DNA of 64,000 nucleotides from Candidatus Saccharimonadota bacterium. Lineage in GTDB: Bacteria > Patescibacteriota > Saccharimonadia > Saccharimonadales > Saccharimonadaceae. The stretch is from the NCBI GenBank assembly GCA_030528625.1, contig JAUMYN010000002.1, positions 62,001-126,000 on the forward strand. Reading direction: 5' to 3'. The translations under genes were made by a program, and so were the position numbers. Below are positions 7,978 to 42,503 of this stretch, piece by piece; positions within the stretch are counted from its first letter, which is position 1; each line of letters opens with the position of its first letter. Under the pieces are notes generated by a model. That model was not told the origin of the DNA and searched no databases. It saw only the letters and a program-made list of their open reading frames with translations.

Positions 7978-8823
7978 CTACCTAACTCCCGCTCTTCGCC
8001 GTAGCTCCTCACTAGCAACTCCCAGGGTAAATAGCGCCCTATAAAGAGCCTTCTGAGCCCCCGGATCGATTGATGATGTACTGGCTTTATACCGCTCAGA
8101 CTGAGGGGTGCTGATATTCAGCTCTCGTTTATCAAAGTGTGTGACAAAGAAGCCAGCCCTATTTGTGTCATACGGCGAGTCATTACGAGCATCGATCCAC
8201 TCAACACTGAGGTCGTTTGGATGATTTAATATCTCACGAAAGTCCTCCAAAGTAAGCGCCCTATTGACATCAAGTCTTTTTCCAAGCTTGAAAGTGACCC
8301 CTGCACTAACAAACATCTCCTTACCATTTTCACCCCTCCTCATGTCGACAGATCCATAAGTGACTTCTCCTGTTTCTGAATCATATACGGTGGATGTCTC
8401 GGGGACACGATTGTCATCTGAAGTCTCAAACTCTCCGTCAGGGCCCAATACTGACCCCTTGTTAGAGAAACCATCGCCGCTCCAGGTCGGGGTTGCGCCA
8501 CTGCTCTCTAATTCCAGTATATCCATTATTCGCGCTGCCGCTACGATGGCAGACTCTTTCATTCGCTCCCTCATTGACTCAATCTCTGCGGTACGGACGG
8601 CCTCCCCGTCCACCGGAGCTACGTCCGGACTCTGTGATGCCATATCAGTGGCCGCCCCAACCGACTGTGTTGTCTCGCCCGGCGCACACGTCTTGGCCTC
8701 AGTAGAGCAGCCACCCACGAGCGTACTGAGTGCTAATATGCCAGCAGCCGCCTTCGTCGCCAACGACTTTCCATTACATTCCGCCCCTGAGAGCCTATCT
8801 TTATTCCTTTTATTCCTTGCCAT
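7978..8823 (-). CDS. Putative lipoprotein A with phase-variable-type promoter
   Basis: 281 aa. A basic N-terminus (MARNKRNKDR), a hydrophobic stretch and a lipobox LVGG|C at about residue 39 predict a lipid-anchored exported protein. The mature part starts with a Ser/Ala/Thr-rich linker and then an acidic globular region; no known domain recognised. Its promoter region is closely related to that of the lipoprotein gene at 39364-40206, although the proteins have little obvious similarity beyond the lipoprotein plan and the DxETGE-type segments. AGAAGGAT precedes the ATG. The (AG)5 tract in the promoter spacer suggests on/off or graded expression (see findings). Confidence 0.85.
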   Translation of the reverse strand: MARNKRNKDRLSGAECNGKSLATKAAAGILALSTLVGGCSTEAKTCAPGETTQSVGAATDMASQSPDVAPVDGEAVRTAEIESMRERMKESAIVAAARIMDILELESSGATPTWSGDGFSNKGSVLGPDGEFETSDDNRVPETSTVYDSETGEVTYGSVDMRRGENGKEMFVSAGVTFKLGKRLDVNRALTLEDFREILNHPNDLSVEWIDARNDSPYDTNRAGFFVTHFDKRELNISTPQSERYKASTSSIDPGAQKALYRALFTLGVASEELRRRAGVR

Positions 8824-8879: not shown

Positions 8880-8906
8880 ATAATACTCTCTCTCTTGATT
8901 TGTCAA
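8880..8906 (-). promoter_or_regulatory. Promoter of lipoprotein A with (AG)5 spacer
   Basis: TTGACA (8901-8906), a 15-base spacer made of AATCA plus (AG)5, then TATTAT (8880-8885). The flanks AAAAACxCTTGACAAATCA match the promoter at 40263-40293, which has (AG)7 and a 19-base spacer. Confidence 0.8.
8886..8895. repeat. Dinucleotide repeat (CT/AG)5 inside a promoter
   Basis: Five uninterrupted CT units (AG on the minus strand) filling most of the -35/-10 spacer of lipoprotein gene A. Slipped-strand mispairing would change the spacer in 2-base steps; n=6 would give the optimal 17 bases. Confidence 0.85.
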
Positions 8907-39363: not shown

Positions 39364-40206
39364 CTACGATATTCCCTCTATCGTTTCGGCGAGATATTTT
39401 TTGGGGTCTTTGGCACCGGGAGTACCGACCCCTTCCGTCCTTATTTTCCCATCCTGATCAATGGTAATATAACGGTAGGTATATGTTTCTCCATCCTGAC
39501 GTGTCTCTACAATGCTTTCAAGCCGCATATTCTTATTGTTTATAATTTCAGCGACGTCCTCTGGCGTCAAATTTTCATGAATAGTTTCGTCTGTCGGAAT
39601 ATTCAGCTTCACCTCCGTTCTCCACTCAAACTGAGAACAATTAGCGATTTCTCCGGTTGCGTCTGTACAAACTTCTCTCTTTCCGTTGATAAACTCCAGC
39701 TGATTACCTTTTGGAAGTGGTGTCACTTTAAAGCCGGTCTCATATGTAGTACTCCTTGTTACTCCCTCGGTTTCTGCGGGCTCTTTTTCATGATAACTAA
39801 TGGTCAGCGAGTTATCTTTAGTCCATAGAGATGTATAATTGCTAGGATCTTCAGGGTTCTGCCACAAAGTAACGTGCGGTAGTTTTTTGCCCGTCGGGTC
39901 TCCTTCTGGCAGTTCTTCTCTCATACCTTCGAGCCGGCTCATTAGCTGCCCAGCAGTAATGCGGTTTACTCTCTCATACTCCTTTGGCGATAATTGGTTA
40001 TCGCTTGATGGCCCCGCCTCCGCGGTAGCAGCTGGCGGCTGCTGGCAAGGCCCTTCGGCGCCAGCGCTACAACCGCCCAAGATGCCACTAGCCGCAGCAA
40101 TTGTGGCAAGGCCTAGAGCCGTCAGCCTTCCTGTGCCTGGCTCACCCTTATCCTTATGCTCGCCAGTCCTATTAGTGCTGCCTGCTTCGGGATTCTTACT
40201 CATCAT
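39364..40206 (-). CDS. Putative lipoprotein B with phase-variable-type promoter
   Basis: 280 aa. Basic/polar N-terminus, hydrophobic LTALGLATIAAASGILGG|C lipobox with the Cys at about residue 46, then a Pro/Ala/Ser linker and a beta-rich mature domain (LEFINGKREVCTDATGEIANCSQFEWRTEVKLNIP) with paired Cys. The mature domain is not recognised. Promoter and spacer layout are shared with lipoprotein A (7978-8823), but the (AG)n tract is longer (n=7). AGAAAGGAT precedes the ATGATG start. Confidence 0.85.
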   Translation of the reverse strand: MMSKNPEAGSTNRTGEHKDKGEPGTGRLTALGLATIAAASGILGGCSAGAEGPCQQPPAATAEAGPSSDNQLSPKEYERVNRITAGQLMSRLEGMREELPEGDPTGKKLPHVTLWQNPEDPSNYTSLWTKDNSLTISYHEKEPAETEGVTRSTTYETGFKVTPLPKGNQLEFINGKREVCTDATGEIANCSQFEWRTEVKLNIPTDETIHENLTPEDVAEIINNKNMRLESIVETRQDGETYTYRYITIDQDGKIRTEGVGTPGAKDPKKYLAETIEGIS

Positions 40207-40262: not shown

Positions 40263-40293
40263 ATAATACTCTCTCTCTCTCTTGATTTGTCAA
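40263..40293 (-). promoter_or_regulatory. Promoter of lipoprotein B with (AG)7 spacer
   Basis: TTGACA (40288-40293), a 19-base spacer of AATCA plus (AG)7, then TATTAT (40263-40268). Two repeat units longer than the copy at 8880-8906. Confidence 0.8.
40269..40282. repeat. Dinucleotide repeat (CT/AG)7 inside a promoter
   Basis: Seven uninterrupted CT units occupying the -35/-10 spacer. Loss of one unit would give the optimal 17-base spacing. Confidence 0.85.
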
Positions 40294-40421
40294 GGGTTTT
40301 TGTCATGTTTTGGTGGTTTTGCAAGGATAAGCGAGGGTGGAAGTGGTGGTTTGCTGGTTGAACAGGACGAGGCTGACGCATATAGTTTGCGTTATTTGCA
40401 ATTTCATGGTACGGTAGACTA

Positions 40422-42503
40422 ATGACGGAGCAACTACACCCAGACAGTCTTTCGGCTCAGACGGCCTACGAAGCCGCTGCCATACCCCAGGCTGAAATCT
40501 ATGCCGCCGATGTGGCAGCCCAGACAGCGAGCTTGCTTCACACAATGCAGGATCCCGTCAATCGGTTAGCTGAGGCTCGCGGCCAGTACTTCCCCCATGC
40601 CCGACTAACTCCTCCAGATGACGCGGCTGCGGACAAGGACGCTAAGGAAGAAAACGACGAAAAACCTGTCCCGAAAAGCACACAGCCGCAAAACGTGGCC
40701 GATGGCCTCTACCCTGATCCTTCGTATAACGGCGGGTTTCTTCGCCATCTCCTGCGTCTTCGACCTGGCGACTCCTACCAGAATACCTCCGAAGGCTACA
40801 GCCCAGACAAAAACGACCCGCCAGAGGCGGCTGAGATAAAACGAGTATTTCGCCGGGCGATCTTGCAGGCCGCCCTCGACCTTGGCGTCCTCCACCAAAA
40901 GCTGGGGCCGCCTCTTGAAATCAATGGCACAGCGCTTGGTGCGGCGCTGCCAGAAGACATACGGCCCATCGGCGAGGTCGATGCGCTTATCATCCCTGGT
41001 GGCGCTGGCGCGACCAACGGCATTCGTCTCTGCGCTGCTCTTGAAGCCCTCCGCAGGGGGATCGTCACGACTGATCATCTTATTATGACCGCCTGCGATC
41101 GACTGGTCGGCGACGCCGAAAAGCAGCGAGCAGCAGCCGCTGGTCTGCCCGCCGGCGATACTGAGTTTGAGTCATGCCTCAAAGCTGCCGAGACAGCGTG
41201 TAGGGACATTACCTGGGAGAAGGGCGAAATTGCAGCCCCTTATCCAAGCGGCCATCCGACCAAAGCACACCAGGCATGGATTCGCCTGATGACCCCTGAA
41301 GGCATGAAAATAATAACTCTCAGTGTTATCTCAGCACCTGTTGACTTACGCCGCACCATGGCAGATGGCAGCCGGCCGACGCGCGCCAACACGCAAGAGA
41401 CCTTCCGCGCCGCCTATCCGCTACTTGGCGAAGGCGGTACAATCGCCATTTGTTCGCATGACACCTGGGTGCCCTATCAAGAAATAGCGGGTCTCGACAC
41501 CTTTGGACTGGAGGTCGACAGACCAGTTGTTGCCTTTGGGCCGCAAAGAACGAATCGCCTCACTCCTGACGGCGACCTTACCGATGCTGAACAGGTGGTT
41601 GACGAAATCGCCAAGGTATATAGCTACATTGAGCGACTGAATATACGCGCTCAAACACTGCGCGATAGCTTTGAGCTGATTTGGTCCTATATTACTACGC
41701 CTATCCCTTCATTAGAAGAACTGCGCTGGGTAAAAACCACTCAGGGTTACCGCAATATACCCGTTGCCAAAAATAATGAACTCTACTATGAACCATTGGT
41801 CAAGCTGGCCGACTACGGGATCGCCGGCCAGGCCTACTATTCCCGGCCAAATGCCACAACAGACCGCCCAGTCAGCGGTGTTGATGGGCAGCCATACCTT
41901 CGTCAGTCAGTTGCCGAGAGGCTGCGGGCTGTCAACCAGTTTTTATCGCTGCCTAGTGTCACCGAATTCTTTGGCGGTGAAGTTGAACTCTACGTCGAGG
42001 ATGGGCTACGCTCCACTGAGCTACAATCTCGACTGTTTAACGAGCTTATCCCCGCGGCACTCAAAGAGCAGCATCCAACAATGAGCGAGTCCGAGCTGCT
42101 CAAGCGGCGCAACCAGATTATCGCCAGGCCGTCCACCCCCGACAACCCGTCACCGCACGCCACCGGCGGTGCGGTCGATCTGCGCCTGCGCTTTAAGCCA
42201 TCGCCGTGGACGCCCGACTTTGTCCCCGATAGCTTTGTCGACATGGGCCATACCGATGGCGACACCGGAACTCGCAACAACCCTGATTATTTTGAAGAGT
42301 TTCCGCCAACGACCCCGGAAGAGGTAAAAGCTCAGCAGCATCGCCGCCTGTTGTACCATCTGCTGACTAGCTACGGCTTTACGGTCAATCCGCACGAGTG
42401 GTGGCACTTTGATTACGGTGATCAGCTATGGGCATTTATGCGGCAGCATGCTCTGGACGATACGGCGGCGCGTGCGTATTTCGGTGCCGCCACGACACCA
42501 TAA
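40422..42503 (+). CDS. Two-domain protein: YdcF/DUF218-like + VanX-type D-Ala-D-Ala dipeptidase
   Basis: 693 aa. Residues ~190-400 contain VDALIIPGGAGATNGIRLCAALEALRRGI, reminiscent of the YdcF/SanA DUF218 fold, tentatively assigned. Residues ~500-690 are an M15D dipeptidase: SPHATGGAVDL is the SxHxxGxAxD zinc site and EWWHFDYGDQLW carries the catalytic Glu and third His. VanX enzymes cleave free D-Ala-D-Ala or help reuse peptidoglycan fragments. No signal peptide is seen, so it may act inside the cell on scavenged dipeptide. TACGGT lies 6 bases before ATG. A terminator follows. Confidence 0.8.
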   Translation: MTEQLHPDSLSAQTAYEAAAIPQAEIYAADVAAQTASLLHTMQDPVNRLAEARGQYFPHARLTPPDDAAADKDAKEENDEKPVPKSTQPQNVADGLYPDPSYNGGFLRHLLRLRPGDSYQNTSEGYSPDKNDPPEAAEIKRVFRRAILQAALDLGVLHQKLGPPLEINGTALGAALPEDIRPIGEVDALIIPGGAGATNGIRLCAALEALRRGIVTTDHLIMTACDRLVGDAEKQRAAAAGLPAGDTEFESCLKAAETACRDITWEKGEIAAPYPSGHPTKAHQAWIRLMTPEGMKIITLSVISAPVDLRRTMADGSRPTRANTQETFRAAYPLLGEGGTIAICSHDTWVPYQEIAGLDTFGLEVDRPVVAFGPQRTNRLTPDGDLTDAEQVVDEIAKVYSYIERLNIRAQTLRDSFELIWSYITTPIPSLEELRWVKTTQGYRNIPVAKNNELYYEPLVKLADYGIAGQAYYSRPNATTDRPVSGVDGQPYLRQSVAERLRAVNQFLSLPSVTEFFGGEVELYVEDGLRSTELQSRLFNELIPAALKEQHPTMSESELLKRRNQIIARPSTPDNPSPHATGGAVDLRLRFKPSPWTPDFVPDSFVDMGHTDGDTGTRNNPDYFEEFPPTTPEEVKAQQHRRLLYHLLTSYGFTVNPHEWWHFDYGDQLWAFMRQHALDDTAARAYFGAATTP

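Follow-up and report, generated by a model that had tools for sequence, protein, structure and literature searches.

Candidate phase-variable promoters with AG-repeat spacers precede lipoprotein and other orphan genes in Saccharibacteria

Two lipoprotein genes in a Saccharibacteria genome lie behind promoters in which a run of AG dinucleotides separates the -35 and -10 hexamers, and closely similar promoters recur in related genomes, mostly ahead of orphan genes that do not encode lipoproteins. The best explanation, and probably the correct one, is that these are slippage-controlled (phase-variable) sigma-70 promoters.

Results

Two promoters with AG-repeat spacers

The source genome spans 788 kb in six contigs, from which we analyzed one stretch of 64 kb (the window). 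Its relevant features are as follows.

40263..40293, minus strand: promoter B, TTGACAAATCAAGAGAGAGAGAGAGTATTAT, with the -35 hexamer TTGACA at 40293-40288, the 19-bp spacer AATCA(AG)7 and the -10 hexamer TATTAT at 40268-40263
40269..40282, minus strand: (AG)7 tract of promoter B, the proposed slippage site and the longest simple repeat in the window
40294..40302, minus strand: A-rich element CAAAAACCC, which abuts the -35 hexamer of promoter B on its upstream side
39364..40206, minus strand: lipoprotein B (ORF 40206-39364), 280 aa, with a signal peptide and the lipobox LGGC
8880..8906, minus strand: promoter A, TTGACAAATCA(AG)5TATTAT, with TTGACA, the 15-bp spacer AATCA(AG)5 and TATTAT
7978..8823, minus strand: lipoprotein A (ORF 8823-7978), 281 aa, with a signal peptide and the lipobox VGGC

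Promoter B, read on the minus strand from 40293 to 40263, is TTGACAAATCA(AG)7TATTAT, just as the preliminary description had given it, with its (AG)7 tract and 19-base spacer ahead of a lipoprotein gene. The likeness to promoter A that had been pointed out also held, since both sites carry TTGACAAATCA, TATTAT and an upstream A-tract (CAAAAACCC at promoter B; CAAAAACAC, just upstream of the -35 hexamer, at promoter A). At both promoters the repeat lies between the two hexamers, as in hif-type promoters, and the distance from the -10 hexamer to the ATG is 56 nt. An A-tract resembling CAAAAACCC is present at most copies of the promoter in the genus, and the element at promoter B may have an UP-element-like role.

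The (AG)7 and (AG)5 tracts were the two longest repeats found in a survey of simple repeats in the window, where other long simple repeats are nearly absent. Matches to AGAGAGAGAG numbered four in the real window, compared with a mean of 0.06 in shuffled windows, and the arrangement of promoter plus tract, which occurs twice in the window, appeared in none of 300 Markov-simulated windows. Chance is excluded as the origin of this arrangement.

By ORF reading, promoter A is flanked by what we take to be genes for ribosomal protein S20 and a HolA-like protein. Promoter B lies in a divergent gap shared with a gene whose product has an M15 peptidase C-terminal part. This gene, at 40422-42503, encodes a 693-aa protein that combines a C-terminal D-Ala-D-Ala dipeptidase (M15) domain with a long N-terminal part lacking a Pfam match.

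Copies in the same genome and in relatives

The preliminary description had guessed that more copies exist elsewhere in the genome. We found one more there and 24 in relatives, for a total of 27 unique sites. The third copy in the source genome (G000:C3:531429), TTGACAAATCGAGATAGAGAGAGTAATAT, has an interrupted AG tract and a spacer of 17, at which it is probably fixed. It lies upstream of a gene for a 222-aa protein without a lipobox and is syntenic with a copy in the G006 genome located between recJ and an S21-like gene. A search of the genus, family and class recovered copies within the genus in G005, G006 (three), G007 and G008, and copies in seven other genera (g8, g16, g21, g22, g29, g57 and g98); most genera had none. 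When we scanned one genome per species across 84,980 species, every matching record was labelled Saccharibacteria or Patescibacteria; the named relatives are Candidatus Saccharibacteria, apart from a single Patescibacteria record. With the pattern reversed as a control, there were next to no matches.

Across genera, the conserved motif is TTGACAAATC[A/G](AG)n TA.T.T; A-tracts often precede it, and AGG and CATAA often follow. We set several matches aside. Those at L009 and L089 were dropped as chance occurrences, as their (AG)4 does not abut the -10 hexamer, and a match in a virus collection (L082) was a phage-like contig with a short (AG)4. Three IMG/VR contigs (L143, L145 and L147) have a promoter in common, TTGACAAATTGAGAGAGAGA; it contains an imperfect AG run and a spacer of about 17 and is not the same element. 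At two sites, L062 and L097 (near 9143), the start codon follows the -10 hexamer by only 8-9 nt, and the mRNAs may be leaderless.

Spacer lengths center on the optimum of ordinary promoters

At the 27 sites, AG runs range from 4 to 9 units and spacers measure 17 (14 sites), 19 (seven), 15 (four), 13 (one) and 23 (one); none of the 27 is even. TTGACA is joined to the AG run by a variable prefix (AATCA, AATCG, AATCT, AATGA, AATTA, AATAC, AAT, AAC, TGC and others). Since the total is odd despite these prefixes of differing sequence and length, gain or loss of AG units can always reach 17.

As a reference, we collected 104 ordinary TTGACA/TATAAT promoters from nine genomes of the genus. Their spacers were 17 in 63/104, 18 in 18/104, 19 in 2/104 and 15 in 0/104. 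A spacer of 15 or 19 was thus present at 11 of 27 AG sites and 2 of 104 ordinary promoters (Fisher p = 2.5e-7, which is only indicative because related AG copies are not independent). Unit steps carry the AG-promoter spacer through the optimal length (13/15/17/19/23), and the two sets of promoters share the same mode, as would be the case for hif-type spacing. Promoters A and B, with spacers of 15 and 19, do lie on opposite sides of the 17-bp optimum, as had been proposed.

Tract length differs between orthologous and duplicated sites

Tract length varies across species at an orthologous promoter and also distinguishes duplicated copies in one genome. Within the prmC-prfA gap, three species of the genus have an alignable orthologous promoter whose spacers measure 19, 17 and 19 bp; the genes it drives show no detectable similarity from one species to another. 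In most other genera and in the source genome of the window, prfA and prmC are adjacent or nearly so. In several genera of Saccharibacteria, this gap is also a hotspot at which unrelated orphan genes have been inserted (L094, L097, L099, L103, L115, L118, L123, L129 and L138), with the AG promoter at some of these loci only.

In the G103 genome, a cassette consisting of the promoter, the leader and about 24 codons occurs at two places, with (AG)7 at one and (AG)8 at the other and near identity downstream of the -10 hexamer. The duplicated cassette is direct evidence of whole-unit tract change over a short evolutionary time. The proteins encoded by the two copies (L103 and L104) are unrelated beyond the shared codons, which suggests recombination that swapped the coding sequence behind a common promoter.

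Genes downstream of the promoters are mostly orphans

The preliminary description had envisaged a small family of switching surface lipoproteins, in which a lipobox protein would follow every promoter copy. The dispersed copies, the position of the repeat in the spacer, and the differences in n at orthologous and duplicated sites agree with this proposal. The downstream genes do not: only four of about 25 ORFs (A, B, G006 and G078) encode a lipobox, the third copy in the source genome precedes none, and most of the products are orphans that are not lipoproteins. The ORF in G165 has a signal-like N terminus and that in G036 is pilin-like; the remaining products are mostly cytosolic-looking, with no signal peptide by eye and no recognized domains. 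A better description is a family of promoters ahead of orphan genes, lipoproteins included.

Lipoproteins A and B are 25% identical over 220 aa (E 0.003-0.05), a weak similarity driven in part by the signal peptides. Lipoprotein B also resembles the G006 lipoprotein (E 3e-5), again partly through the signal peptide. A protein search for homologues of A and B elsewhere in the genus found none, and scans of A, B and the other downstream orphans examined (ten in the Pfam scan) gave no family above the cut-off in Pfam, NCBIfam or PHROGs. An AlphaFold2 model of lipoprotein B consists of a helix and an antiparallel sheet at moderate confidence (mean pLDDT 63). Its fold is not assignable, as Foldseek returned no match at E 0.001 and no clear match in the PDB; the best VIA match (Z 6.7) is within noise.

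MutS is absent and other AG tracts are few

MutS_I, the mismatch-binding domain, was absent from 12 of 12 genomes tested and was found in 11 of 14 controls. A survey of Saccharibacteria likewise found no evidence of MutS or MutL (PMC8406219).

The source genome contains four uninterrupted (AG)5+ tracts in all. The two outside promoters A and B are also in slippage-sensitive places. In one (G000:C3:104768, outside the window; L067), a CA run leads into (AG)5, and this sequence encodes a type IV pilin-like leader (...HHTHTHRERGFTIVEL...). The leader is in frame in this assembly, and the protein is a possible coding phase-variable pilin. The other (G000:C3:328532; L068, L106) is an (AG)8 inside a methyltransferase-like ORF whose halves are in different frames. 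In relatives the frame is open throughout, and G030, the relative that we inspected, has no AG run there.

Discussion

How the promoters could switch

If the promoters are phase variable, the (AG)n tract that fills the spacer would gain or lose one AG by slipped-strand mispairing, moving the spacer in 2-bp steps (13, 15, 17, 19 and so on). A spacer of 17 bp would give a strong promoter, and one of 15 or 19 bp a promoter that is weak or off. In this assembly both promoters would be in the low state, with A (15) and B (19) each differing from the optimum by a single unit. Without MutS-type mismatch repair, even short tracts could become mutable. As a dispersed cassette, the promoter recurs in front of orphan genes that are lineage-specific, those for lipoproteins A and B included. 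We infer the mutation mechanism, the strength at each length and the reversibility of the change from sequence, as we do a role in diversifying the surface or host-interaction repertoire of an epibiont. The AG tracts of 5-8 units are short compared with those of classical contingency loci.

Alternative explanations

Alternatively, a dedicated regulator might bind the AG spacer as a conserved site, or the purine tract might serve a regulon as a structural element; in either case, length would matter little and there would be no switch. Conservation across genera extends beyond the bare hexamers, to TTGACAAATC, the downstream AGG/CATAA and the upstream A-tracts, as this explanation would predict. 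The combination of n = 7 with TTGACAAATCA and TATTAT, common to three species, also fits a fixed site; by the same token, the tract may be fairly stable. Yet a regulator site should have a fixed length, and we observe 4 to 9 units, with one-unit changes both between orthologous sites and within a duplicated pair; nor would such a site be expected to have a spacer mode equal to the 17-bp optimum of ordinary promoters and a parity that is always odd. We therefore consider this explanation unlikely. Control of the MerR type, in which a bound protein remodels a long spacer (19-20 bp), might be proposed for promoter B, and several copies do measure exactly 19 bp. MerR operators are dyad-symmetric, and we rejected this explanation since the AG run has no dyad; spacers of 13, 15 and 17 are also at odds with it, making it very improbable.

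A neutral origin, with a promoter cassette spread by recombination and AG length drifting without selection for switching, seems to us somewhat less likely again than a regulator site. It would account for the G103 cassette, duplicated along with its first 24 codons, for the patchy distribution across genera and for the interrupted copy in the source genome. It leaves unexplained the odd parity across different prefixes, the mode at 17 and the perfect tracts kept at orthologous places when long simple repeats are nearly absent from the window. Phase-variable promoters remain our preferred explanation.

Relation to known systems

The class of mechanism, hif-type phase variation through promoter spacing, is already known. 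In Haemophilus influenzae, a (TA)9-11 tract in the hifA/hifB promoter region has been proposed to alter the -35/-10 spacing (van Ham 1993, Geluk 1998, as summarized in PMC2651432). As that summary presents it, the likeness lies in a dinucleotide repeat between the hexamers, a change of 2 bp per unit and the proposed control of surface-protein expression. The hifA/hifB locus itself, a divergent promoter pair over (TA)n serving fimbrial genes, is not what we found: the Saccharibacteria repeat is AG, the promoters act in a single direction and the product at A and B is a lipoprotein. Also unlike hifA/hifB, the loci are dispersed, share one conserved promoter motif, serve orphan lipoproteins together with cytosolic-looking products and occur where MutS is absent.

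Other systems share single features. At porA of Neisseria meningitidis, a promoter repeat likewise changes the level of expression, but the tract is mononucleotide (poly-G) and serves one porin gene (PMC3639595). Phase variation of lipoproteins is known in Mycoplasma, from Vlp of M. hyorhinis (PMC11868660). There too the bacterium is host-attached and has a small genome, lipoproteins are among the products, and combinatorial expression would be expected in both. The Vlp genes, however, form one cluster with coding repeats, whereas the Saccharibacteria loci are dispersed and for the most part neither related in sequence nor lipoprotein genes. The hypervariable repeat protein of Gracilibacteria BD1-5, likewise from the CPR, is encoded at a variable repeat locus, but there a coding 9-mer undergoes mainly synonymous changes and no promoter is involved (PMC6851277). 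In a literature search of open-licence PMC papers, preprints excluded, no paper described phase variation in Saccharibacteria. Three aspects appear to be new: that such promoters exist in Saccharibacteria, that they form a conserved, dispersed cassette, and that this cassette is paired with orphan genes where MutS is lacking.

Implications

A broader reading, which we hold tentatively as possible rather than probable, is that these promoters form a genome-wide contingency system of Saccharibacteria. A portable AG-promoter cassette, copied to new sites, would recruit orphan genes for lipoproteins, pilin-like proteins and cytosolic proteins; these would switch independently of one another as host-interaction factors and be mutable through the loss of MutS/MutL. 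If true, it would give the CPR a first phase-variation system. Saccharibacteria are mostly small-genome epibionts, and such switching would bear on how they diversify their surfaces toward bacterial hosts and phages. The AG signature would predict both which genes switch and the state caught in each assembly, predictions that are testable with existing reads and cultured TM7 strains.
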